NCBI RefSeq assembly: GCF_037126465.1
Contig: NC_088206.1
Coordinates: forward strand, 52,432,841 to 52,496,840
Origin: Ornithodoros turicata
Lineage: Eukaryota > Arthropoda > Arachnida > Ixodida > Argasidae
Reading direction: 5' to 3'
Length of the DNA stretch: 64,000 nucleotides
In this document: in pieces, positions 4,401 through 60,719 of the stretch
Position numbering within the stretch: position 1 is the stretch's first letter
Layout: each line of letters starts with the position of its first letter
Notes under the pieces: model-generated
Seen by the model: only the letters and a program-made list of their open reading frames with translations
What the model was told of the DNA's origin: nothing
The model's database searches: none
Position numbers and translations under genes: made by a program

Positions 4401-7400
4401 CGCTTGAAGTTATGGCACTGGAGGTGTCGCTTTCTTTACTTCGTCTGGACATGGCTTTCCGTTCCGCTTTCACTGCGTTTGCATACATTGTGATTTCAGC
4501 ATGCACAAATACATAATGGTGCCACGATGTTACACGTAAGGTTTGTCTGCCCAGTGTGGCGACATGTTGCACGTGCCGCAAATAGGACAACGGATAATTT
4601 TTGCCACCTGGGGTTCATTTAACGTGCGCCTCAAACCTCCGAGGCACGGTACTAGATATATTGTTTACCTCCCCCTACATTGCTATCGTCCTCGGCCGGG
4701 ATGGAACCTGCGATCTTGAGCTCACATGTTACCGACGGAAGTACCGAGGCCGGCCAGCATGCACTCAGCTCCATTTCTCAAGCAGATAAGACGGAGAAAT
4801 TTCAGCACGCATTGCACGATTTAAAGAACCAAGGAAAAGACATTATATGTTGCTCGAAACTATACTTAATTCGTCAAAGATCGTATCAGGAGCACACAAA
4901 ATATTTTTACAAAGCAACCTATTAGCACAGCCCAATATAATTTTACAAGGACCGCCCTCGATGGCTGATTTCGTAGCGTGTCGCCCTACTGATCCCAAGG
5001 TTCCGGGTTCGAACCCGGCCGAGGACGCCAGAACCTTGGTGGCAGGGTACGATTTCCTTTGACACGCCGTCTTCTGGTGTGTCGTTTGTTTAGATTTCAG
5101 CGCACGTTCAAGAACTCCCAGATGGGTAAACTTAATCTGCAGACCGACCGCTCATGATCATAGTTGTCTCGCGACGTAAAGCCACGAATTATGATGATAT
5201 TAATTTAATTAGAATCGCTATGAACGCACAGCAAGGCAATGAGCTCACAAATCTGGCCACACTGACGCGGCGAGCGGGACGTGTTCTCTCAGCGCCAACT
5301 CCAATCAGCTACATCGCTACAAAATTCGTAGCGCGTCGACCCTTTTGCACTCAAGAAGTGCGTGGTTTCGGGATGCTTGCATAGCCCTGGGCGCCCACCG
5401 TTCCATCCATGATTCACAAAACATCGATACATAAAGAGGAGGAAAGCGATATATCCCAAACTCACACGTCACTCCAAGGTCCGGTATATTCGCTTTCTCC
5501 CCATGGATTACGGAGACGAATCAATTGGGTGAGGTCATCTGAATTGTCCAGCTTGAACTGAAACGTGACATCTGGTGCTCGTCTTTAATTGCAACGCGAC
5601 GTCTGTAGGCCTCACCTCAGCGACACCTGTGACACTGTACTCGTGGTTTGCATAGAGGCCGTCAGCCACCTTCACTTCTGTAGTCTCACCTTCCTCCTCC
5701 TGTTGTGGTGGCGTCTATACCACATAAAATAACAAAGCAAAAGTAACATTCAGGAACAGATTATACACGAGTTTCATTACGTTTGTTAAATGCGATAGCA
5801 TCGCACTTTTGGGGCCTCGGCGTCCGCATCGGGACACTCTCCTTGGAGAGGTTTCTTCATCACGGTTCCGTAGGGAGACTTAGAAGGACTACAATAGATT
5901 TATGTTGAATCCCAATGGCAGAGTCGGAGATAGACCTTTACCTGTTTGTAAACAAATGACGTCGTAGTGTTCGACAGCGCCACGAATTTGGTAACAGTTG
6001 AACTACGTTCAAAGCTAGTGGCGAACAAGGTGGCGCCTGAAAGCCACGGTCTTGAGGGGATTCGATGATCTTTGAAAAGGACGCGACCTTCGGTCCTACT
6101 TTTCTTTCAATAGGAGGCAGCGAACAATTGCCCATTCGTGGAACCCAGCCTTCCCCTTCCGATCTGTTTTGGTTTCGGTGTGTCTACCGACGTCATCATG
6201 ACGTTTCTCGGGTAGAGGTTTATTGGCAGACTCGGCAATGGAGCGGCTTGATCTGGCCTAGAGCAAGTGATCCGCATCTGCGACCGGAACACTTGCGCCC
6301 AGGTGGTGGTGGTGATGGTGAAAGGACTCGCCGTTGTCGGCCTCACAGAGGTGGGCAACGCCACTACTGACGCTCTGGGGAGTGTGCGTCCTTGGCCGAC
6401 TTCTAGGGGAACTGTGCCGACACATATCTGAAAACGTCTGAGGAAAACCCAGGAAAAACCCCAGACAGCATATCCGGCACCGGGATTCGAACCCGGGTGC
6501 CTCCCAGTCTCAACGACACTTGCGCCCAACTGGGAGTTTAGTAGCTATGGCCCTGGCCAATCTCCCTTGATTGATGACGGCCAGAGACGGAGAAATAAGA
6601 AGAAGTAGGTAGTGATGTTCCTCTACAACCCTATGTTTTGCAACATGAAGGTCCTCCCAATCTCCCAACGTTGCCCTGGTAATGCCTGGCTCGTCGCTTT
6701 CTTCAAGAAGCAAAATCGCCAACGTACGACGCGAAATACCATGAGAGAACTGATGTTCTGAGGCTGGAACAACATAGAAAGGACAAATACATACAAGGCC
6801 TCAAGTTGCCTAAGAAATTAACGATGACAGATGAAAGTCATTGAAAAGGACAAAAAGTAGAGAAACTCCGACTCCGAGAAACTCCGTCCAGTTATGTCGT
6901 CTCCCGGCTTTCGGAGTATTTTTGCGACCCTGAAAAGGTTAGCCAGCTGCAGGACTCGAACCCACATCTTCTGGATTACCGGTCCAGGGCTCTACCAATT
7001 GAGCTAAGCTAACACACCTCCCCAGCGACTTCCAAGGGTGCGTCATCTGAAGAGACAAACCAGCCACTTTCTCTCACTCATCCTCCTTTCCCTCTTACAT
7101 TTTTGCTCACTCATACACATATTCATACGACTGGATCGAAGCGAGCGGCAACTGTTGAACATGAGAGAACTGATGAGAAAGAGAACTCTCATGTTCAACA
7201 GTTGCCGCACGCGTCGATACCGCCGTATGAATGTATGTATGAGTGAACAAAAATGTAAGAGTGAAAGGAGGATGAGAGAGAGAGAGTGGCTAGTTTGTCT
7301 CTTCAGATGACGCACCCTTGGAAGTCGCTGGTGAGGTTTGTTAGCTTAGCTCAATTGATAGAGCCCTGAACCGGTAATCCAGAAGATGTGGGTTCGAGCC

Positions 7401-10400
7401 CCCACAGCTGGCTAACCTTTTCAGTGACTTTCATCTTTCATCGCGAAATACCAGTCACGGCGGATACACATTGCGATCGTGGTCACGTTTAGCGAAGGAG
7501 GGTCAGGAAATAGGAAGCACGAGCGAGAAGTGATACGTCAAGGGAGAGTTCCGGTTGAATCTGTCGATTTTGGCAGAGCAGTCTGGTTTGCTGCTTAGAG
7601 CGACCTTGGCTTGAAGGCCGCTCCAAAGCTCCAATTGGAAGACTCCGGCACTGTTCCCAATCTGCCAATAGAGCAGACTTCCTGCCACAGAGCAGACTCC
7701 CGGCGAGGCAGCAAGCCATGCTCCGGAAGCGCTCCGAACCTGCCATTGGGATTTGAAGGCCTTTACGACAACGATGCCGAAAACATGATAACCTTAGAAG
7801 TGGCTGCCATCACGACGCTGATCTTGTATTTGACAGCTTCCTCTATCGTATAATTTTCATATAGAGTGCTTCCAAAGTGTTGAAACTCCTTATTGCCTCT
7901 TTTTGGTCCTATATTGACCCCATGAACAAACTGTGGCTATGAGTGGCATACACACTTGGACAGCAGGAAAGGCTGAAGGACAGGAGCTTGGTGTGTTGCC
8001 AAGACCGACTTCAGGGGGAACTTGCCAACATTCGTCTGGAAGGTCTGCCGGAAATCCCAGTGAAAACCTTAGCACAGAACAACACAGCACAGCACAGTGG
8101 AAGGATTGAACCCAACACTCCCTAATCTTCGTCACGACCTTGACTACCATCAAGGAGGGGATGCTTTCACTCGTTCAGTGTCTACGCGGCGCCTCACGTG
8201 ATGTCACTCACGTTGTCTGGCAACTAGGACGCCGCGGAGTTACAGCGTAGGTGGTGTGCTGCGGAGCATTCGCACAAGAAAACAGCTTGCTGATGTACCG
8301 CCATTGGATACGTTCAGTATCGACTGTAGCAGTCCGAAGGGAGTGAATCTATCTAACCCCACAAGGAGCCTTTGCTTATAACGCTCAATATCCTGGTTTG
8401 CTCACCCGCCACCCTCTGTTGGAGTGTTTCGGCTTCGCTTGGCAGACACCTGACACCACAAGCACTCCATTTTTAAAAGCGGAACGAATCGAAAACTGTG
8501 TTTGTGGAAGGCTGAGTCGATGCATCGTTCATCGTTGCAATTTTCTGCAGGCCATTCAAGGTTAGGGTATCTTTGTGTAGCGCAGGGCAGGAATGCACAA
8601 AGCGATTCCCACAAACCACGCACCAAAACATCATTACATCCGCCAAAACACGTCTCTGAGCTGGCAGAATGGCGGAACTACTTCACTCCACTAGAGTCGC
8701 GGTGCTTTTCACTCCACCACTCCGTTTCTGAGATGGAGACACGGAAATTGACAGCCGTCACGCGCACCGGAAGTGCGCTTGGCCGTTTAGTAGATGGGTT
8801 CATGACTCCTTGGACTCTGGAGTCGCCAGTTAACACGCCCATTGCTGAGGGATGCGCAGACGCCGTGGCAGAAAATGAGGACCGTAATCTGCGAGCCGCC
8901 GCTATTGGCAGGATGCGGAGTGCGACAAAGTGTGCCACCATTAGGCTTGTTCTGATGTTCAGAAACGTGCACCAAAGATTACAGTGACTTTAATAAACGC
9001 ATTTAGAGGCGAAACCCGTGTTTCTGCACTAAGCCCATGACAATCCATGGTTGGGTTCGTCGCTCTGCCGAACGCATATCACGTGCCGCATAGCACATGG
9101 AGCACCCTTCGTTTGTTGCAATGCCATTGCAGAGTGTACGCGTTGGCAGTGCGCCAAGCTTACAGTGATTTTTTTTTTTTTTACCTTGTAAGCAGAGAGT
9201 ATACGGGTGCTTACCACGAAAGAGCTGGTCAGGATGGACCTTCTCTCGAAGGCTCTCTTGATAGCGCGCCAGATGTTCTTAGGCAATGGTAGCAGAATGA
9301 ACTGCTCAGGAATGCCTCCAGTAAAATCCGTTAGGGCTTCCGTACCTGTGCCTCCCTCCAGGTTCCCGTACGTCCCGTTCAACCTAAACACCAGGATGGA
9401 GTTAAACGCCGGTAGTTGCTACAGCTACGGTTCGTAATATGCAGGCAGTGTTGTGCATAGCAGCGCTACTAGTAGCTCCGCTACCGTACCACTGATAACG
9501 AAAATAGTATTTCTGCTATAAATATGGGTAGCGTAGGACTCTTTCTCCGCTACATGATATGGAAGAAGTGGAACGCAGAGAGAGAGAGAGAGAGAAAAAA
9601 AAAGCGAGGTGACGGTAAAGCAGATGTTTTTCTTTTTATTAGTTACTTGTTATTTCAGGCAGACTGATGTGACTATCTTCCTCAATTTCACTAACTCTTA
9701 TGAGCTAAGCTCAAAAGGAAGTGCAACGGGAATACGAAGATATATCAGCAACGCGATATTGTCATATAGCCAATGAACTTCAAAGGTACCGCTTAGTTTG
9801 TTCAAGGTGTTTGTGCCGCAGGTGAAGCATTTCTGGCGAGATAGAATTTCCTAAGCTTACACAGGCTGCAGAACGCGATCTAGTCGCACTCTATACGTTT
9901 GTTAGTCGCACAAAATGAAGAAATAATAATATTATTCGGGAATCAGTGTAACCAACATCCTTATTGACGCTCTTTGTATAGGTGTTGAACTTTAAACCAG
10001 TTGTTGTTTACATCGTTCTACACGTTTACGGAAAAGTTTTTGTTTTTCTGTAAGTGCTTCATTACGCGGGTAATCTCACACAAGTAGATGACTCTTTCCG
10101 GGGAACTCGTACTCCCAGAAAAAGCACATTCAACGGTGGCTGAAACAATGGAAGCTGGGGTAGGCAACCTTTTGGGGGCAACAACAGGGGTAGGCAACAA
10201 CAGAGTTTTGGTGATGTGGTGATGGCGAATGGACCCGCCGTTGTCGGCCTCAGAGAAGTGGGCTACATCGGACATCGGACACCTGGGGGCACGGACATTT
10301 CGGTGTATGCGCGTGGTACAGCGTTACTTGTCACCTGAATAGGCATCGATATTTTACAAGTACCTATAACATCGTATTGGAAAAATATCGATAATTCTCA

Positions 10401-15861: not shown

Positions 15862-15865
15862 CAAG

Positions 15866-16375
15866 TGTTGCGTCTCGGGGTCCGAGCGGTGATGTGACGG
15901 GGAGGTGGCCAGGCAGGGGTCCGACTCAAACAACAAAACAGTGGTTTATTGCATCTTCGACGGGTTTCAGAGAACAGACAGAGCGAACGGGAGAGTCCGC
16001 TCCTTATAAAGCATTCGAGCGGCCGTGGCCGTTACATACAAAAGAGCATTCACTTCATTAACAATAAAAGCACTTTGGCTTAACGTATTAGTTCTGTACA
16101 TATCACTGTTGTCTGGGTCGTCTCCAGTCTGGAGGTGGCCGCTTTGTCCGAGGGAAGAAAGGCAGCTGATCCGACCGTGACCTGCTTTTGCGCCCACATT
16201 GGAGACACGTTAATGGGTTGGACGGATTAACTGTCCGTTGTGGCTTTTGAGAATCGTTTCAAGAACCAGGTCGTATGCGGGAAGAAAAGGTTGCTCGGCG
16301 TACGCTGACCATTCTTGGAGGACGCAAAGAGGTTCTTGCATTAGTGAATGGCCCAGGGAAACTCGTGTCGCAACA
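15866..16375 (-). repeat. 3' LTR of the Gypsy-type element
   Basis: 510 bp, TGTTGCG...CGCAACA. It matches 22450-22959 apart from one site (GCGCCCACATT here against GCGCCTACATT). Read on the minus strand this is the 3' LTR because the gag end lies at the other copy. It contains AATAAAAGC near 16063 on the plus strand. Confidence 0.95.
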
Positions 16376-16391
16376 ACTCCTCCCCCGCCGG
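16376..16391 (-). promoter_or_regulatory. polypurine tract
   Basis: On the minus strand GGCGGGGGAGGAGTT abuts the 3' LTR directly. This is the position and composition expected of the plus-strand DNA primer in reverse transcription. Confidence 0.8.
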
Positions 16392-16903
16392 TGGTCGTCA
16401 CGATGGGGAGCAGTTACTTTCGCTGCTCCACTATGATGATGGACGTCATGATGCCTTGGATTCAACCAGTGCGTCCAGCTCCACGTGCCACTTTGTTTCC
16501 CGCTGAAGGACGGACAGATGTCTTCAGCACATGACGAAACAGGGACACCCCTACGTTGAAGTCTTGGACTTGAAAGGCCTCTGATGAAGAAGTATAGCTC
16601 TGGATACAACAATAGACAGCAGTGCGCGAAACAAACACACCGAACCACACGTGCGTGCACAAACAAGTGCCCCGCTATCCAAAGCCCGATCACACCAGAC
16701 AGTGTTAACTCTGATAATATGTACATCTAATTTCTTTATGCCCTCAATTCAGCTACTTAACAATGAGCATAACCCTTGTACACAAAAGAGGAATTACGCC
16801 CTCACAATTCGCTGGTACCAGACGAGCACTCTATGATACAAACACAAAGAAGTAGGTATTTACAATTGAAAATTGGTAAGCATTCTTGAGCTCATCCAGT
16901 GAA

Positions 16904-19900
16904 CTAAAAGCCTCTGCTCAGGCCGTCGGCATTTCCGTTTTGGCTCCCCTTTTTGTAGCGTATTTCGTAGCTGTACTGTTGGAGTATGAGAGACCAACGT
17001 AACAAACGTCCGTTCTTTGGCGACATGTTCTGCAACCAGGTCAGAGGACAATGGTCTGTCTCGACTATGAATTTTGTCCCTGCCAGGTAGCACTCAAGCT
17101 TTTGTACAGCCCATACGAGACACGCGCACTCTTTCTCCGAGGCGCTGTACGCCTCTTCGCGCGCAGTCAACTTACGGCTAACGAAGAGAACTGGCCGCTC
17201 TCGCCCGCGATCGTCAAGTTGGCACAAGACGGCTCCTATGCCACGGTCGCTTGCATCACACTGCACTATAAAAGTGCGGTTGTAGTCCGGTGTTGCGAGT
17301 ACCGGTTTGCGAGTTAGGGCCTCCTTTAGGGCCTGGAAAGCCTGTGCCTTACTTTCGTCCCATACCACCTTTGAAGGGGCTGTTTTTCGAAGGGCATCCG
17401 TTAGTGGACTAGCAATTTGAGAGTAGTTAGAAATGTAATGCTGGTAATAGCCAGCGAGGCCTAAAAATGCCCGTATGTCTGTCTTAGTTTTGGGCTGCGG
17501 GAAATCGATTACAGCGCTAATCTTCAAGTCAGAAGGACGGCGGTAGCCCTGATCAACAACGTGACCCAGATAGGTCACCTCCGCGCTTCCCAGTTGACAT
17601 TTCTTTGGTCGCACGGTTATTCCAGCCTGCTGCAGACGACTCAAAACCTCCCTGAGGTGCTCTACATGTTCCTCCCAGGTATTTGAAAATATAGCCACGT
17701 CGTCGAGATACGGCAGAGCGAAGCTGCTTAGACCGTCCAAGATATTATCCATCAGCTTCGAAAAGCAAAAGGGAGCATTTTTGAGGCCGAATGCTAATGC
17801 TGTAGGACGAAAGGTACCAAAGGGAGAGACAAAGGCGGCATACCGGCGGGCCCTCTCCGTTAGTGGCACCTGCCAGTAGCCCCTAACCAAGTCTAAGGTC
17901 GAAATAAACTTAGCTTTGCTCACTGTCTCAACCCTGTCCTCGATGTTGGGGATTGGGTATATCTCGTCCCGGGTTATCGCATTAAGTCGCCGATAATCAA
18001 TGCACGGCCGGGGATCCTTTCCTGGGACTTCAACCAATATCATTGGCGAGGTGTAGTCACTTTCACCTCGTTCAATCACACCGAGTTGTATCATGCGTTT
18101 GATTTCGACCTCCATAATGTCCTTTTGTCTGGGCGACATTCGATACGGCTTAGATCGAATAGATTCATTGCTAGTGAGCTGAATGTCATGGGTTGTAACC
18201 GATGTTTTGCCTGGCTTTTCCGAAAAGACTCCTTTGAAGTCATGTACAATCCTTTTAAGGTCAGTTACCTGCATCGGTTCGAGCGATTCTCCTAAACGCG
18301 CGCAGCATACAATTTCCTCGACTGTGAGTTCTCTGGTGTCATCGACAGTGGGAATCTCAGGAGCCACTTCCTCGGGAACATTTAAACTGAGATTAACAAT
18401 GACATCGCGCTCTCGGTACGGCTTCATGAGGTTAGAGTGGTACACCTTTACTGATTTCCGACGATTTCCCAGCTCAACCACGTAGTTGGTGTCTGAAATC
18501 TTTTGCACTACATTGGCGGGTCCCTCCCATTGCACGTCTAGTCGGTTTTGCTTTGCGGGTTTCAACAGCATTACTTTGTCTCCTGTCGCGAACACTCGCT
18601 TCCTGGCCGTCCTGTCATAATATCTCTTTGCTCTTTCTTGAGCCGCTTTCATGTTTTGCTCAACAACTTCTTTAGCGTGACTCAATCGTTCTAAGAGATT
18701 CAGAACGTACTCGACGACCGTCGGGTCCTCTCCTTGGCCTTCCCAAGATTCCCTCAATAAGCGCAATGGCGATCTTAGGTTCCTTCCATAAACTAGCTCT
18801 GCTGGATTGAAGCCGGTTGTTTCATGCGGAGCTGTGCGTAGTGCGAACATAGTCGCCGAGAGGCACGATTCCCAGTCCTTTTTGTTTTCAAAGCACAACG
18901 CCCGTAATACGCGCTTTAACACTCCGTGAACGCGTTCCACGCTATTCGATTGGGGATGATATATCGAGCTGTGAATTAGCTTAATTCCACATTTTTCCAA
19001 GAAGGTAGTGGTTAGACAGCTTGTGAAAACGCTCCCGTTGTCACATTGGATCTCTGATGGGAAGCCGACGCGCGCAAATATGCTGAGAAGTGCGTCAACG
19101 ACAGTCGTGGATTTTACTTCTACGAGAGGCACTGCCTCCGGGAACTTAGTTGCAGGGCAGAGCGCAGTAAGGATGTAGCGGAAACCTGACTTTGTGGCGG
19201 GAAGTGGTCCTACGATATCTATCACTAGACGCTTGAATGGTTCTGTGATAATGGGGACAAGTTGCATCGGGGCTCTCTTCTTGTCGCCCGATTTACCTAC
19301 GCGTTGGCATGTGTCGCACGACCTTACAAACATTTCCACATCCTTCCAGCACATGGGCCAATAGTACTCCTGCACCAAGCGGAGCTTAGTCTTACGAATC
19401 CCTAGGTGCCCAGCCCATGACCCTGAGTGGGCTATGTGAAGGAGGTCGCCACGGTATTTCTGCGGAACCACCAATTGATCAAAAGTCCTACCATTTCGGT
19501 CCTGATATTGTCTGTGTAGAAGGCCCGATCGTACGAAAAATTTAATATTTTTCCTTGCTACACCTTCCTTGATGCTGTTACGCAGCTCGATAAGCGTTGG
19601 GTCAGCCTCCTGTTCCTTGGCGAAAGCTTCCGCATTTACATTTGCAAGAATTTCAAAATTCTTCGATACTGGCGATAGGAAGTTGCCTTCGAAGGGCTGT
19701 ACATTCGCGTCCGTCGCCTCCTGCGCAATTTCTTCACGGGCGCGATTTTCGTCCCTTCCCGAAGTTCCCTTATCGGCGCCACCCGCACTCAGACTATCGG
19801 AATTTATCGGGTCTCCCTGTGCCGTCTGATTTGGAACAGCATCGTACTCCATTTTCGGCGCGAGCTCTCTTGCCTTAGAGCGAGTTAAAGCCAATACAAG

Positions 19901-20188
19901 CTCATCTGAAAAACACTGACCACGGTCCTTTAGCAACTGCTCAGATTTGTTGGAAAACAAGTAGGGATACGCCTGAGGGAGGTTTCTCGATACTGCCGCC
20001 TCTGTCACCAGTGTTCCGAATGGACCCTTAATGGTAACTCTCGCTAACGGAAGACACACGCTGTGTTCTTCCACGACCTGCTTAATCCAGGCACATTCCC
20101 CAGTATAGCTTTCCTTTTCTACGTACGATGGGTGGACAACATAGGTGGGGAAGTTACTTTTATTTTGTAGTGCACTACCGTTACTCAC
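16904..20188 (-). CDS. pol: pol: integrase, reverse transcriptase, RNase H (protease remnant at start)
   Basis: An open frame of 1094 codons; about the first 16 codons lie inside the hAT-like insertion. Integrase comes first: zinc finger His254/His261/Cys291/Cys294, then DDE residues Asp324 (VIDIVGP), Asp383 (QCDNGS) and Glu418 (NSVERV), with the 34-residue gap typical of the family. A GPY/F-like module follows (WEGPANVV...HSNLMKPY, about 554-591). RT runs from about 660 to 930 with TSPMILVE, FGLKNAPF and active site YLDD (827-830). RNase H occupies about 970-1092, with Asp978 (QCDAS), Glu1018 or Glu1020 and Asp1045 (ETDHCPL), ending near NADGLSR. No stop or frameshift is seen. The order integrase-RT-RNase H within one frame excludes a simple rearrangement artefact. 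Confidence 0.95.
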   Translation of the reverse strand: MSNGSALQNKSNFPTYVVHPSYVEKESYTGECAWIKQVVEEHSVCLPLARVTIKGPFGTLVTEAAVSRNLPQAYPYLFSNKSEQLLKDRGQCFSDELVLALTRSKARELAPKMEYDAVPNQTAQGDPINSDSLSAGGADKGTSGRDENRAREEIAQEATDANVQPFEGNFLSPVSKNFEILANVNAEAFAKEQEADPTLIELRNSIKEGVARKNIKFFVRSGLLHRQYQDRNGRTFDQLVVPQKYRGDLLHIAHSGSWAGHLGIRKTKLRLVQEYYWPMCWKDVEMFVRSCDTCQRVGKSGDKKRAPMQLVPIITEPFKRLVIDIVGPLPATKSGFRYILTALCPATKFPEAVPLVEVKSTTVVDALLSIFARVGFPSEIQCDNGSVFTSCLTTTFLEKCGIKLIHSSIYHPQSNSVERVHGVLKRVLRALCFENKKDWESCLSATMFALRTAPHETTGFNPAELVYGRNLRSPLRLLRESWEGQGEDPTVVEYVLNLLERLSHAKEVVEQNMKAAQERAKRYYDRTARKRVFATGDKVMLLKPAKQNRLDVQWEGPANVVQKISDTNYVVELGNRRKSVKVYHSNLMKPYRERDVIVNLSLNVPEEVAPEIPTVDDTRELTVEEIVCCARLGESLEPMQVTDLKRIVHDFKGVFSEKPGKTSVTTHDIQLTSNESIRSKPYRMSPRQKDIMEVEIKRMIQLGVIERGESDYTSPMILVEVPGKDPRPCIDYRRLNAITRDEIYPIPNIEDRVETVSKAKFISTLDLVRGYWQVPLTERARRYAAFVSPFGTFRPTALAFGLKNAPFCFSKLMDNILDGLSSFALPYLDDVAIFSNTWEEHVEHLREVLSRLQQAGITVRPKKCQLGSAEVTYLGHVVDQGYRRPSDLKISAVIDFPQPKTKTDIRAFLGLAGYYQHYISNYSQIASPLTDALRKTAPSKVVWDESKAQAFQALKEALTRKPVLATPDYNRTFIVQCDASDRGIGAVLCQLDDRGRERPVLFVSRKLTAREEAYSASEKECACLVWAVQKLECYLAGTKFIVETDHCPLTWLQNMSPKNGRLLRWSLILQQYSYEIRYKKGSQNGNADGLSRGF

Positions 20189-21016
20189 TACTTTTTCGAA
20201 AAGTAACGCGTTACGTTATTCGTTACTGTTGCGGTAGTAGGTAACGCGTTACTAACGTCGTTACTTCTGATAAGTAATGCCGTTACTTTTGCATTACTTC
20301 ACCAGTTGTCCTTATAATATGTACCATTTTTGGTTGAGTCACATAAGTGCATTCCGCAAATCAATACAAGCAATGTTGGGCACAAACAAGGGTCACGCAT
20401 GAACACAACTTACATGTACGATTTATTTATTACAACGCAGAAGTAGTTGATATTCAAAATTTCCATCGGTGAGCTTCGCCCGTTGGGCTGAGAGGACGCC
20501 TATTGACCAGTGAGTGCTCCTTGTCAAGGTTGATAGAGACGGTGACCTTTTATCTCATACAGTACAAACCCAAACAGCCAATTCCTTGGTACTTTGTTAC
20601 TTGTTCAGGGGGTAGAGGATATTTTTCTGCCGCTTTTGCCCCATTCGTCCGAAAAATACCAGAGGGAGTGAAAAACAGAGGTGGTGAACAAAGGTGACAC
20701 CTCAACCAGGGTAGGTCAACAACCCTTCTTTTGCGTTCTTCGTGGGTGTCGATGTGACCTTCTTGTCATTGTTGAAGATGAATAGAAGAAATCGGGGATT
20801 TTCCCCGATTCTGCAGGCACGGTCCTCGCTCAAGCTTTCAAGTTCCCGAACACGCAGTAACGCATAACGCCGTTACGCGTTAGTTGTTAAAAATGTAATG
20901 ACGTTACGTTACTCATTACTTTTCTCCCAAATGTAATGCGTTACCATATTGCACTACTCGGATGTAACGCGTTACCGGTAACGCACTACTTTGTAACGCG
21001 TTACTCCCCACCTATG
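20140..21016. mobile_element. hAT-like non-autonomous element inside the protease
   Basis: 877 bp with terminal inverted repeats CATAGGTGGGGA / TCCCCACCTATG and an 8-bp target duplication GTGGACAA (20132-20139 and 21017-21024), both hAT hallmarks. Inside both ends, words like GTAACGCGTTAC and GTTACTTTT recur, giving long subterminal palindromic clusters. No transposase frame. Insertion plus duplication is 885 bp, a multiple of three, and the interrupted frame resumes in the same register. Confidence 0.88.
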
Positions 21017-21024
21017 GTGGACAA

Positions 21025-22252
21025 CGTCCATCGTAGCGGCAGAATCACGTAGTACACGGCACGGTTTGTCATTTACAGTCATGTCCCGCAGGTACGGTTC
21101 GAGCAATTTTGCGTTCTCGGCGCTGCTACTGACGTAGGAAAACACTACTTTATTTGGGCAGCTTCCCGCATAGTGGCCTGGTTTGTTACAATCGTAGCAA
21201 ACGTCACGTCTCCTAGACTCGAATACCCTCGTATTCTCTCTGTTAGACTGGCCTCTGTTTTCTGACGTAGCAGGCGTCAGTCGTGCCTCGTTGCCGTTTC
21301 GCTTAGCTGTTTCCTGACCTTTTCCGAAACGCCCGGAATGAAACTTTTTCCTATGAACCTTTCCTGATTCTAGGCTTTCCTTCTCGCTTTCCAGCGAACC
21401 CTTAGACGACAGCGTGCTCACTGTCTGCGCTTTACGACGGGCTGCGAACTCCTCCGCGAGTTCTGCGGCTTTTTGCACATCTACCTGTTTCATGCGATCC
21501 TGAACCCAAAACATGGTCGCTTCGGGGAGGCAGCGATAGAACTGTTCTAAAGCTATACATTCGATAACCTTATCGTGGTCGCCGTGCACCTCTGCACTCT
21601 TAAGCCACTCTAGCAGGTTTGCCTTCAGCCTGTACGCGTGCTCTGGAAATGATTCGTCTGGCTTCTTGTTCGACGTGCGAAATCGCTGCCGAAAGGCTTC
21701 GGTAGACAAGCGGTATTTCTTTAACAGAGCGTTTTTCGCTTTGGCATAGACAGCGGCGTCTTCTTTACTTAGCCGAGCTATGACATCCGCGGCTTCACAG
21801 GGCAATAGAGTGAGGAGTTTCTGAGGCCAGACATCGCGCTCGAAACCTACTTTCTCACACGTGCGCTCGAAATTGACGAGATACAGACCAATGTCCTCCC
21901 CGACTTTGAAAGGTTGTAGCAGATCTTTGATTTTGATTCGCTCACTGTTCGCGCTTCTGCCTACAACACGTCCGGAACTTTCAGCCTCCAACCTGAGTCT
22001 CTCTAACTCCAATCTTTTCACAGTGAGCTCATGATCGCGTTTTTCCTTTTCAACGCGCTCCTGTTTTGCAGCTTCTTCCTTCTCTTTTCTTTCAAGGATC
22101 AACTGCCAACATTCCGTTAGTTCCTCATCATCGGCTCCAATTCCCCGGATAAGCTCAATGATTTGGGGTTTTCGTTTTGCCTGCCCAGCGCTACCTCCAA
22201 GTTCTTCTAGCAGAAGTAACAAGTCTGGTACCCGCAATTTACTTAAGTCCAT
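21025..22252 (-). CDS. gag: gag with zinc knuckle and N-terminal protease part
   Basis: Begins MDLSKLRVPDLLLLLEELGG; residues 55-95 form a charged, coiled-coil-like stretch (ERKEKEEAAKQERVEKEK). The gag body follows, then a CCHC knuckle CYDCNKPGHYAGSC at 352-365 for RNA binding. At 402-406 RDSAA is the protease active-site motif, with Ala where DSG/DTG usually has Gly. The open frame actually continues to 20972 through about 17 codons of the hAT-like element before a stop. Before that insertion gag and pol were one frame of roughly 1500 codons. Confidence 0.9.
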
Positions 22253-22449
22253 GGTTCCTCTCTAGAGTGCCAAATTCCCCGCTATACTTTTGGGTTGAAG
22301 CTGAACTTCGTGCTTCCTAACGAAAATAGCTAACAGAATTTGCCTACTGCTTCCTCACCGTCTGGTAAAGATCTGACAAGGAAAGCGGTGCACTCACCCA
22401 TGCGACGACTTGCGGTCCAGCGAGGTCTATCCCGACGCTGCCATCCAGT
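22253..22449 (-). promoter_or_regulatory. leader and probable primer-binding site
   Basis: 197 nt between the 5' LTR and the gag start. Right after the LTR the minus strand reads AC then TGGATGGCAGCGTCGGGATA. A tRNA-complementary site normally starts with TGG at this place, so either TGG (22447 or 22443) could be it. I could not assign the tRNA. Confidence 0.5.
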
Positions 22450-22959
22450 TGTTGCGTCTCGGGGTCCGAGCGGTGATGTGACGGGGAGGTGGCCAGGCAG
22501 GGGTCCGACTCAAACAACAAAACAGTGGTTTATTGCATCTTCGACGGGTTTCAGAGAACAGACAGAGCGAACGGGAGAGTCCGCTCCTTATAAAGCATTC
22601 GAGCGGCCGTGGCCGTTACATACAAAAGAGCATTCACTTCATTAACAATAAAAGCACTTTGGCTTAACGTATTAGTTCTGTACATATCACTGTTGTCTGG
22701 GTCGTCTCCAGTCTGGAGGTGGCCGCTTTGTCCGAGGGAAGAAAGGCAGCTGATCCGACCGTGACCTGCTTTTGCGCCTACATTGGAGACACGTTAATGG
22801 GTTGGACGGATTAACTGTCCGTTGTGGCTTTTGAGAATCGTTTCAAGAACCAGGTCGTATGCGGGAAGAAAAGGTTGCTCGGCGTACGCTGACCATTCTT
22901 GGAGGACGCAAAGAGGTTCTTGCATTAGTGAATGGCCCAGGGAAACTCGTGTCGCAACA
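22450..22959 (-). repeat. 5' LTR of the Gypsy-type element
   Basis: 510 bp, the partner of 15866-16375. Transcription of the element would start within this copy and run down the minus strand into gag. The right flank starts CAAG, the target duplication. Confidence 0.95.
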
Positions 22960-22963
22960 CAAG

Positions 22964-49734: not shown

Positions 49735-49910
49735 ACTGAAAAGCTAGCTGTAGGACTCAAACCCTCATCTTCTGGATTACCAGTCCAGGTCTCTTATCAA
49801 TTGAGCTAAGCTAACGTACGTCCCCAGCGACTTCCGAAGGTACGTCATCTGAAGGGACAAACCAACCACTACAGCTGGCTAGCTTTTCAGTGACTTCCTT
49901 CTTTCATCAT
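49735..49910 (-). mobile_element. SINE, solitary copy of the Thr-type family
   Basis: tRNA-like head 49743-49815 (minus strand, GTTAGCTTAGCTCAATTGAT...CTGGACTGGTAATCCAG) followed downstream by CCAGCGACTTCCGAAGGTAC and TCATCTGAAGGGACAAACC. It matches the arms of the 6937-7430 palindrome. It interrupts the minus-strand LINE. Confidence 0.7.
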
Positions 49911-52842: not shown

Positions 52843-53469
52843 TTACTTTACATTTACTTTACCAATCGATAATACTGGAAACGGACCACAAAGGTCGGCA
52901 TGCAGCAATTCCAGTACGTAATCCCTTGGTTTAGCGTTTATGGACTTGAACGAAGTCCTTGGCTGCTTCGCTGTAAGGCACTCTTCACATTGGGGATGTT
53001 CGCGTTGGATGGAGGGTAAACCCCTGATAACGTGTCGTTGACCCATCTGTATCAATGTATCGAAGTTCAAATGACACATACGCCGGTGCCACACCATACT
53101 GTCATTCTTTTTTAAGGTTTTCGCAACCTCTGTGGAGGATGACGTCACTTCCCCATTCAGTCTGTAGATTCCTGCTTCTTTGGCCCCCGAGAAAACGAAC
53201 CGGTTTCCTTTGAAAGCAGTACTTTCGTCCCCGCTGAATGTGACGATGATACCACTGTCGCTTAGTTTGGAAACGGAGATCAAATTGTCCGCCATTCCGG
53301 GTACATACAGGACTTCCTTTGCTGCCAATGTGTTGACAACACTTCCGTTTTTCACTTTGAACATGACTGTTCCAGTTCCGCAGGCGTTCATAACCTTCCC
53401 GTCCGCCAAAGTCACCTTTCTTCCCTCATCATTTTTGAAGTTGGTTGAAACTTCCTTTCTGCCTGTCAT
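52843..53469 (-). pseudogene. Copia protease end and pre-integrase zinc finger
   Basis: Begins MTGRKEVSTNFKNDEGRKVT; VLYVPGMADNLISVSKLSDSG is the conserved Copia segment between protease and integrase. MVWHRRMCHLNFDTLI and QCEECLTAKQPRTSF form the HHCC zinc site. Ends just after HADLCGPFP. The frame upstream supplies IDSCASNH, in which the usual DSG is DSC. Confidence 0.88.
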
Positions 53470-54332
53470 ATGATTGCTGGCACAAGAATCGATAGACCAC
53501 TTAAGTAGATTCTCTGCCGTTCAACATTCGACTGCGCCAAAAGCGTAGTGATGACCTTGGCCGTTGTCCTGGTGAAACTCGTGCCTAGAAAAAGACTTGG
53601 CCATTCGGGCCCCTGTCTTGGTCTCTCGGGTCTGGTATCCTGTTGTCCTGATTTCGAAGGATGAGAATCAGAGACTTTTCTATTGTCTTGTCGGGAGTAG
53701 CACTCTCGAGCGAAGTGGCCAGGTTTCCCACAGTGGTAGCACTTTACTTTCTTGCTGTCCCTTGGTCTGCCTGAAGAAATCCTAACCTTGCACGCCGCCT
53801 CATCCGTTGACGTAGTTTGACGTCCTTCTTGTAGCAGTGCATATTTCACTTTCTCAGGAGTGATGTTTGCCATTGAACAGGCGTTAAAACTTCTTGCAAC
53901 ACCATAATACGGACGTGGCAACCCCTGAAGCGCTACCGATGCTACCTCCGAGTCGTCGAGAGAGTCTCCCAGTATGGGGCGCAGCACTTTGGCTACGACA
54001 AACGTCCAGCGAAATTTTCTTGGCAGGCCAAAGTCCAGCGTCAAATTGCGCTCGCCATACGAGGGAATCGGTGAACCGTTGGCAGCTTGCAAGGATGGTC
54101 CGTTGGACGGTCGATGACGCTCGTGGGGCAAAGGGGGAACGGCGCTAATCTGGGCCCCAGTGTCGACGAGAAACTGCAGACCTGATAGTCGGTCGGTGAG
54201 AAAAAACAGACGACTTTGTGCCGTACCTACTCCGTTCGTCGTCCCTAACGGCCGGCGGGCTCGTTTCCCGGCCACTGACATGGCGGGGAACACTGGCGAG
54301 CCGATGCGCCGAAGTTGAAATGATACCAGCAA
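53466..54332 (-). pseudogene. in-frame fusion of Gypsy protease to Copia gag tail
   Basis: One open frame of 288 codons. The first part is a Gypsy protease (FLTDRLSGLQFLVDTGAQIS AVPP, then VVAKVLRPILGDS). From about residue 139 it becomes Copia gag (DSEVASVALQGLPRPYYGVA ...) and the zinc knuckle CYHCGKPGHFARECYSR. There is no stop or shift at the join near 53935. Overlaps the gag frame by 88 nt at its start, as in frameshift-expressed Gypsy pol. Confidence 0.82.
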
Positions 54333-55147
54333 TAAGCCGACGTGGGCGGTGGAGCAAGTGCTGGGGACCGAAACCTGCCAATGCTTCTGCGAGAGTTCGG
54401 CGGCGGTGATTGTTGCCGTCGAGCCGCCGGCTGCCGGTTAGGCGATGCCGGGGAGAGGGATCTGCGCGTATCTCGGGTGGCCTGAAGTTGGAGACACAAA
54501 TTTTCCACTGAAGTTTCCAGGGCGCGGAGGCGAGAATCTATATCGCCGCAGCCCCGGAGGGTGCTGGCGGGATGGACAGCTGCGATCGACGCTTCACCTT
54601 CTTCCATTAGCTTGTCCGCCAAAAGAGCGAGGTCCGGTAGCGATGATGGCTGGGAGACAACGAGTAGACTACGGACAATGGATGGCAGTCGCCGTAAAAA
54701 AAGCTCCCTCAGACAGTCTTCATCGAACGTACTTGTTTTCTCTCCGAGAAGGGCGTAGAGACGCCGCAGAAGCTGAGAGGGTTTGCTGTCGCCCAGCTCC
54801 TCAGTCGAAAGTAAGCGGTTCAGTCGCTCGGTAGCAGACGCCTGAAACCTGCGAAGGAGCTTCTGCTTCAGATCCTGGTACTGCAAAGTAGTGGGAGGGC
54901 TGGCTATTATGTCCGCGACTTCGACGATATCGCGCTCAGAAAGCGCCCGAATGACCAGGTGGTACCTTGACAGCTCGGAACGAACTCCCTTTAACGCGAA
55001 TTCTGATTCGGCTTGTGCGAACCAAAGCTGGGGGTTCGTCGGCCAGAAGTCAGGAAGGCGACATGCCGCGGTGACCGTAGCAATTTCAACTGAGCTGCCG
55101 GTGTCGCCGGTGCCGGTTGGGCGTTGCGGTTCTGACGTGAGAGACAT
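54245..55147 (-). CDS. gag: Gypsy gag
   Basis: 300 codons, uninterrupted. FWPTNPQLWFAQAESEFALK, DIIASPPTTLQYQDLKQKLL RRFQ and LRELFLRRLPSIVRSLLVV are typical of arthropod Mag-type Gypsy gag. A coiled-coil-like stretch (DSRLRALETSVENLCLQLQ) and a basic, Pro/Arg-rich C-terminus with WYHFNFGASARQC follow. It starts 3 nt inside the leader from the primer-binding site. Its partner pol is truncated after the protease. Confidence 0.88.
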   Translation of the reverse strand: MSLTSEPQRPTGTGDTGSSVEIATVTAACRLPDFWPTNPQLWFAQAESEFALKGVRSELSRYHLVIRALSERDIVEVADIIASPPTTLQYQDLKQKLLRRFQASATERLNRLLSTEELGDSKPSQLLRRLYALLGEKTSTFDEDCLRELFLRRLPSIVRSLLVVSQPSSLPDLALLADKLMEEGEASIAAVHPASTLRGCGDIDSRLRALETSVENLCLQLQATRDTRRSLSPASPNRQPAARRQQSPPPNSRRSIGRFRSPALAPPPTSAYCWYHFNFGASARQCSPPCQWPGNEPAGR

Positions 55148-59816: not shown

Positions 59817-60719
59817 TTGCAGCATTCATCTCAATCTTTTTATTTGCGTCCTACTTGTTGCTCTGAAGTTTTGCCTACCATATCTTCGCTGCGCAATACA
59901 TATGCTGGCTATGATAACATATCTGTGTTAAACCTTAAACTCGTCCAAACTTTAATCTCCCCTGTTCTGGCACACATTGTTAATCTAGCTTTTCAACAGG
60001 GCAGATTTCCCGCGGTACTGAAAAGGGCAATTGTTGCGCCTATCTATAAAAAGGGGAATGTCTGTGATATTAAAAGCTACAGGCGAATATCTATCCCACC
60101 TGCTGTTAGTAAAGTCCTTGAAAAGCTAATTCATGACCGCTTAATGAGTTATCTTCAATCTTTCGACATTCTATACGCTAAACAATTCGGGTTCCGCAGT
60201 GGTTTGTCGACTGTGACTGCTCTCATAAATTTCGTCGAACGTGTCAAGCAATCAATTGACTCTGGCGGCGTTGCTTTATCTGTATTTGTTGACTTTTCCA
60301 AAGCTGTCGATTGCGTGAACCACAGAACTCTTTTGTCGAAACTTACCAGCTATGGAATATGTGGACCCGCCCACGACCTTCTGCGTAGCTATCTTGCTGA
60401 CCGCACACAAGTTGTCAGATATGATGGCGCACTATCGCTTGCTACGACACTCAACGTCGGTGTTCCTCAGGGATCTATTTTAGGGCCTCTCCTTTTCTTA
60501 ACATACATAAATGACCTTCCTAATCATATCGTGCATTCCGATGTGTTCTTGTACGCTGATGATACTACCTTACTTATCACAGGCCAAAATACAGAAGAAC
60601 TAATAGATAGACTACAAGTTGATTTAGATAGTTTGGAACAATGGTGTGGCAGCAATCATTTGAAGTTAAACTCTGATAAAACTGTTTGTATGCTATTTCA
60701 TTCCCCGCAGTGTCGCTAG
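59817..60719 (+). pseudogene. LINE reverse transcriptase core
   Basis: 300 codons. IVAPIYKKGNVCDIKSYRRI S.P, KQFGFRSGLSTVTALINF, SVFVDFSKAVDCVNHRTLLS, GVPQGSILGPLLFLTYINDL and LYADDTTLL supply all the palm motifs; the YADD active site is intact. SYRRIS replaces the usual NYRPIS. The RT core would be functional but for the frame breaks on both sides. Confidence 0.9.

Follow-up and report, generated by a model that had tools for sequence, protein, structure and literature searches.

The window analyzed here, 64,000 nucleotides of contig NC_088206.1 (positions 52,432,841 to 52,496,840, forward strand; assembly GCF_037126465.1) from the soft tick Ornithodoros turicata, holds what we read as a recently inserted Gmr1-like Ty3/Gypsy long terminal repeat (LTR) retrotransposon that is now disabled. 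Its integrase would precede reverse transcriptase (RT) through one old permutation, and the DD34E spacing of the integrase would have arisen later; we put the probability of this reading at about 0.93. The order along the element is protease-integrase-RT-RNase H, and the 3' untranslated region, the polypurine tract and an LTR lie downstream of the pol frame (Table 1). The H2C2 domain, the rve core, the GPY/F module, an RT with YLDD and RNase H were all identified by Pfam in one frame, each of the five above its own cut-off, which bears out the integrase-RT-RNase H order described by the first-pass annotation. Its guess of a tick host is right as well. That annotation had also taken the frame as unbroken and the copy as having LTRs and a target duplication. 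The domains do share one frame, and both LTRs (identical at 509 of 510 positions) are present between CTTG duplications, but the frame opens in the DNA of an 875-bp insert that splits the protease, and the polyprotein is broken.

Further tick copies with the same domain order, for which the first-pass annotation had suggested a search, are present in the O. turicata genome (1.07 Gb in 379 contigs). The pol frame gave at least 46 genomic matches (42 of 19,620 candidates scored), and all six further copies that were fetched have the integrase-RT-RNase H order within one gag-pol frame, 1482–1519 codons long between stops. Five of these copies carry an LTR pair flanked by a 4-bp duplication (by eye ATAT, CTGG, CCAG, ACAG and CCCC), with 0 to 3 substitutions per pair and a 14-nt gap in one pair; no LTR pair was seen in the sixth, L045. 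The fetched copies measure about 5.98–6.23 kb and their LTRs about 390–519 bp. The window LTR as query returned at least 43 matches (40 of 97 candidates scored), single and partial LTRs included, and among them were eight LTR pairs spaced 5.7–6.6 kb apart, one of which is the window's own. P0190, a Gypsy query with RT first, matched this genome at least 41 times (33 of 20,732 candidates scored). Both pol orders therefore coexist in O. turicata.

The same order prevails among database relatives. The window query produced 911 hits, the best 120 of which were examined, and this sample is not a survey; integrase came first in all 117 homologues with both domains, the other three being incomplete. 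The named hosts are ticks, spiders, Onthophagus taurus, turtles, frogs, Holothuria leucospilota and the sponge Halichondria panicea. The control queries were two Gypsy loci in the RT-first order, drawn from metagenome-assembled genome (MAG) records. Among the matches listed for them (the best 120 proteins each, again not surveys), RT came first in 120 of 120 and in 111 of 119 proteins, with seven incomplete and one, P0298, chimeric. Related copies in the usual order, which the first-pass annotation had named as a case that would speak against it, were thus absent from the six copies and the 117 homologues.

The P0298 gene model (Cordylochernes scorpioides) places RNase H and integrase ahead of RT and probably represents fused conventional elements that mimic the integrase-first order. 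Integrase-first elements of animal type were also seen in MAG records labelled Thiodubiliella, Heimdallarchaeota, Nitrososphaeraceae and Asgard (L001, L002, P0074 and P0090), and these records are most likely contamination. Scans of viral_contigs found no relative.

Gmr1-like elements are Gypsy elements defined by an integrase that lies ahead of RT (PMC3587641, PMC6238403), and SCAN has been tied to their Gag (PMC4592553, PMC3424704). The SCAN-like region of the window Gag also matches the SCAN domain of ZNF24 (3lhr, E=8e-5). SCAN matches were obtained in 29 of the 32 integrase-first members scanned, and Pfam zf-CCHC in 18 of these 32. For 28 conventional members with gag, the 25 families listed do not include SCAN, a listing in which the match of one lone member could stay hidden, and PF02023 was seen by eye in no row listed for the two control queries. 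The single gag-pol frame of about 6 kb is found in all six further copies; the window copy is interrupted by its insert, with both parts in frame. The protease active site reads DSAA in place of DSGA or DTGA in 29 of 82 aligned relatives (82 of 119 rows entered this count); over the 30 rows scored, the integrase tree requires at least four changes of the motif. Its domain order, a Gag with a SCAN-like capsid, the single frame, its size and its placement in the trees with integrase-first vertebrate elements (turtle, frog) assign the element to the Gmr1-like group, as the first-pass annotation had supposed. It had further suggested a new lineage or a wider spread of the group. A distinct tick-bearing clade with DD34E does emerge (see below), but spread beyond deuterostomes is already published, with Gmr1-like elements reported from crustaceans (PMC3587641) and an annelid (PMC8220671). 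Our literature search found no report of one from ticks. As far as that search goes, a Gmr1-like element with a SCAN-like Gag is new for ticks, and the order itself is ordinary.

The first-pass annotation had described the integrase as DD35E, which proved incorrect: 34 residues separate D383 and E418, making it DD34E. Among the integrase-first rows (n=121), the spacing is 34 in 79 and 35 in 29, with 13 unmatched by the pattern, P0298 among those; in the RT-first rows (n=242) it is 35 in 191 and 32, 33 or 34 in three, with 48 unmatched. An alignment of 61 integrase-first proteins shows D324, D383 and E418 to be invariant and the distance from first to second aspartate to be 58–59 in both spacing groups. 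All 14 members with 35 have 'GL' ahead of the 'VE' or 'CE' of the glutamate, and all 47 members with 34 have one residue in its place (S in 25, P in 13, A in 7, C in 1 and M in 1). In O. turicata, 13 of 14 Gmr1-like loci were measurable and represent nine places including the window, all with 34; for the conventional query the spacing is 35 at eight of eight loci.

Trees of integrase and of RT-RNase H were built separately from 88 rows, 71 of them selected by greedy clustering from 309 rows with usable three-domain lengths and 17 by hand, with P0298 excluded. A further RT-RNase H tree omitted four rows (L014, L003 and L002, which have long branches, and P0249, a near duplicate of P0123). On the RT-RNase H tree, which has no integrase input, the difference between 34 and 35 is one change on a branch with 100/100 support; 80 of 84 rows were scored for spacing, the four unscored rows being conventional, and by eye P0022 was scored as 34 and P0117 and P0120 as 35. 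The window sits in a 34-row set supported at 100/100 in both the integrase and the RT-RNase H trees, and its nearest row in both is P0003 of O. turicata. All 34 rows have the shorter loop. Eleven are from ticks, spiders and one beetle (window included) and one is labelled as an Asgard MAG; the named animal hosts are all arthropods. As read from these sequences, DD34E is a variant inside the Gmr1-like group, in which the other integrase-first rows that were measured, 29 in all, have 35.

According to the published accounts, Copia, Gypsy and endogenous retrovirus (ERV) integrases of fish have 35 residues between the second aspartate and the glutamate (PMC11117352), and the crustacean GyRex5 integrase is given as DD35E (PMC3587641). 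For DD34E in gypsy LTR integrases, our literature search found only Tc1-mariner context in the available portions of the texts. The published spacing, together with the 35 seen in 191 of 194 measured conventional relatives, could mean that DD34E marks a degenerate integrase whose elements are mobilised by the enzymes of others. We consider this very unlikely: the catalytic triad is invariant over the 61 sequences, DD34E is carried by tick, spider and beetle rows, and in one genome several subfamilies have LTR pairs with 0–3 substitutions. The shorter loop probably permits integrase activity, because copies with identical LTRs carry it.

In the integrase tree, the integrase-first rows occupy one side of a single branch (100/99), where turtle, frog, sponge and sea cucumber rows join the arthropod rows; the RT-RNase H tree without the four omitted rows likewise places them on one branch (100/100). 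The separate phylogenies to which the first-pass annotation had pointed thus yield one integrase-first clade, for RT-RNase H only when the four rows are left out, and favour a single origin of the order for the rows sampled. The tick-spider-beetle rows do form their own clade at 100/100 with DD34E, as would be expected had an independent permutation in arthropod Gypsy elements converged with Gmr1. However, the non-arthropod integrase-first elements share the same side of the branch, and the SCAN-like Gag is present in most members scanned, so that we regard convergence as extremely improbable.

Both halves of pol resemble Gypsy. The pol frame matches the Ty3 RT chain 4ol8 at 3e-70, so that an RT outside Gypsy, the second case named against the first-pass annotation, is likewise absent. 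The integrase part matches Ty3 7q5b at 1e-26 (97 bits) and foamy virus integrase at 93 bits, versus only 25 bits for 7z0h, which we take to be Ty1 integrase. RVT_1 was found in pol, and no match to RVT_2, presumably the Pfam name of Copia-type RT, was obtained at E<=0.001. The element therefore has the RT and RNase H of Ty3/Gypsy without the usual RT-RNase H-integrase order, and neither a Copia-type RT nor a Copia-type integrase. Because both halves are Gypsy-like, the order most likely came from a permutation within Gypsy pol, to judge from these comparisons. A chimera that joined a Gypsy RT to an integrase of Copia origin would account for the Copia-like domain order; given the integrase scores and the GPY/F module that it carries, such an origin is barely tenable. 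That a local rearrangement or assembly artefact placed integrase before RT in the window copy alone has next to no chance of being correct, disturbed as this copy is by the insert dividing its protease, since the six further copies and the 117 homologues keep the order.

Several points weigh against our reading of a Gmr1-like element with a once-permuted pol and an active DD34E integrase. In the 88-row RT-RNase H tree, the very long row L014 stands apart and the order needs two changes; the conventional rows group to the exclusion of L014 with 97/95 support, and in an approximately unbiased (AU) test with all rows one integrase-first clade was not rejected (p 0.618), the constrained tree having a likelihood higher by 6.4. 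As the trees contain no sequence named Gmr1, the name is based on the features listed above. A TIHG protease flap has been given for Gmr1-like elements, there as 'data not shown' (PMC2577118); the flap is TIKG in the window and varied in 23 aligned relatives, and the published TIHG is not clearly shared. An organism is named for only 12 of the 34 tree rows of the DD34E clade. Integrase activity is read from identical LTRs and open frames, and the primer binding site is putative.

From established LTR-element biology, the LTR promoter would give rise to an RNA translated as one Gag-Pol chain, which the protease would cut. A tRNA-primed RT/RNase H would then make DNA within particles, and the integrase would insert it with a 4-bp stagger. 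At the putative primer site, TGG(A/T)TG(G/A)CAGC is kept in the five LTR-paired sister copies; the conserved AC-TGG(A/T)TG(G/A)CAGC downstream of the 5' LTR in L043, L044 and L046–L048 looks, we assume, like a primer site for tRNA-Leu that has gained a base. The integrase-first order would have been inherited from one old permutation within Gypsy pol, not taken from Copia, and one residue of the active-site loop would have been lost later in the lineage to the tick-spider-beetle clade, leaving an enzyme that appears still active.

Known systems resemble the tick element to different degrees. Fish Gmr1-4 of Tetraodontiformes have one gag-pol frame of 1506–1634 aa, a length of 6.06–6.47 kb and LTRs of 337–518 bp (PMC11117352), and the tick copies, also Gypsy with one gag-pol frame (1482–1519 codons), are similar in size and LTR; in contrast, 35 is given for the Gypsy group of the fish, whereas the tick clade has 34 and lies apart from the vertebrate rows. 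Crustacean elements such as GyRex4/5 (PMC3587641) share arthropod hosts and an integrase upstream of RT, but are known from fragments, and with GyRex5 being DD35E may fall outside the DD34E clade. LGF3 of Lamellibrachia (PMC8220671) is a Gmr1-clade element in a protostome whose host, unlike the tick, is a marine annelid. Yeast Ty3 (7q5b, 4ol8) is alike in RT, RNase H and integrase by sequence, and in RT also by fold, but has the order RT-RNase H-integrase. Further counterparts are tick proteins, such as those of O. turicata (P0003), H. longicornis (P0010) and I. scapularis (P0014), which belong to the same family (63–74% identity), are integrase-first with DD34E, and are annotated merely as uncharacterized proteins.

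The 875-bp insert resembles a miniature inverted-repeat transposable element (MITE). It has at least 42 matches in the genome (40 of 910 candidates scored), 40 of them at 96–100% identity (the window copy being the 100%), with two extra pieces (91% and 97%) beside one of the 40. The insert borders are fixed, because 38 matches span all 875 bp. The 39 further matches among the 40 scored candidates lie at 96–97%, and the repeat has therefore been recently amplified. The insert is rich in GTAACGCGTTAC, and its 10-bp duplication is presumably of Mutator-like length. Copies L043–L045, whose pol and gag DNA is 98–99% identical, do not contain the insert; the distance between their gag and pol pieces is 10 bp, which corresponds to a single target copy, and gag and pol on either side of the insert read in the same frame. 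Since these copies are without the insert, the GTG start of the pol frame lies within it and the polyprotein of the window copy is broken. The MITE-like insertion is thus later than the element that it disrupted.

Table 1. Features of the integrase-first element and of its insert, in window coordinates.
Feature	Position	Strand	Remarks
Whole LTR retrotransposon	15866..22959	-	7094 bp, of which 875 bp are insert and 10 bp its extra duplication
5' LTR	22450..22959	-	510 bp, TGTTG...CAACA
3' LTR	15866..16375	-	510 bp, one difference from 5' LTR
Target-site duplication CTTG, 5' side	22960..22963	.	
Target-site duplication CTTG, 3' side	15862..15865	.	
Putative primer binding site TGGATGGCAGCGTCGGGAT	22429..22447	-	2 nt past 5' LTR; from position and conservation
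Polypurine tract GGCGGGGGAGGAGT	16376..16389	-	Abuts 3' LTR; G-rich tract also in LTR-paired copies
Gag and first protease part, 426 aa	20972..22252	-	Frame terminates within insert DNA
SCAN-like capsid region of Gag, residues 185-274	21431..21700	-	Pfam SCAN E=1.7e-15
CCHC zinc knuckle of Gag	21158..21199	-	
Protease active-site motif DSAA	21035..21046	-	
Pol frame: protease remainder, integrase, RT, RNase H	16904..20188	-	1094 codons; opening codons are insert DNA
Integrase H2C2 zinc-binding domain, residues 241-298	19295..19468	-	Pfam E=4.8e-18
Integrase core rve, residues 315-412; D324, D383	18953..19246	-	
Shortened active-site loop HPQSNSVE, residues 411-418, catalytic E418 (DD34E)	18935..18958	-	
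GPY/F module (Integrase_p58_C), residues 556-590	18419..18523	-	Pfam
Reverse transcriptase RVT_1, residues 724-877	17558..18019	-	
YLDD of RT, residues 827-830	17699-17710	-	
RNase H, residues 943-1072	16973..17362	-	Pfam
MITE-like insert, inverted ends	20141..21015	.	875 bp; divides protease
10-bp duplication GGTGGACAAC flanking insert, first copy	21016..21025	.	
10-bp duplication GGTGGACAAC flanking insert, second copy	20131..20140	.	

Elsewhere in the window, broken Copia-like frames (Pol_BBD, gag_pre-integrs, CCHC) adjoin a DUF7041 frame at 52843-55147 (-). A second reverse transcriptase frame at 59817-60719 (+) (RVT_1, E=6e-32) is perhaps a non-LTR element. Three tRNA-like sequences (6941-7013, 49742-49815 and 7340-7413), of which two were assigned to tRNA-Thr (anticodon ggt), are possibly repeats derived from tRNA.

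These data extend Gmr1-like elements with a SCAN-like Gag to ticks and show a sponge member. They support the view that Gypsy pol was permuted once, and none of the sampled rows shows a reversal. If true, the DD34E-clade reading, which we hold to be likely, would give a naturally occurring departure from the DD35E spacing that is almost universal among integrases of LTR elements and retroviruses. An LTR-element integrase could then lose a residue of its catalytic loop and be inherited in that form across arthropod hosts, and the rule of 35 would become testable with natural proteins.

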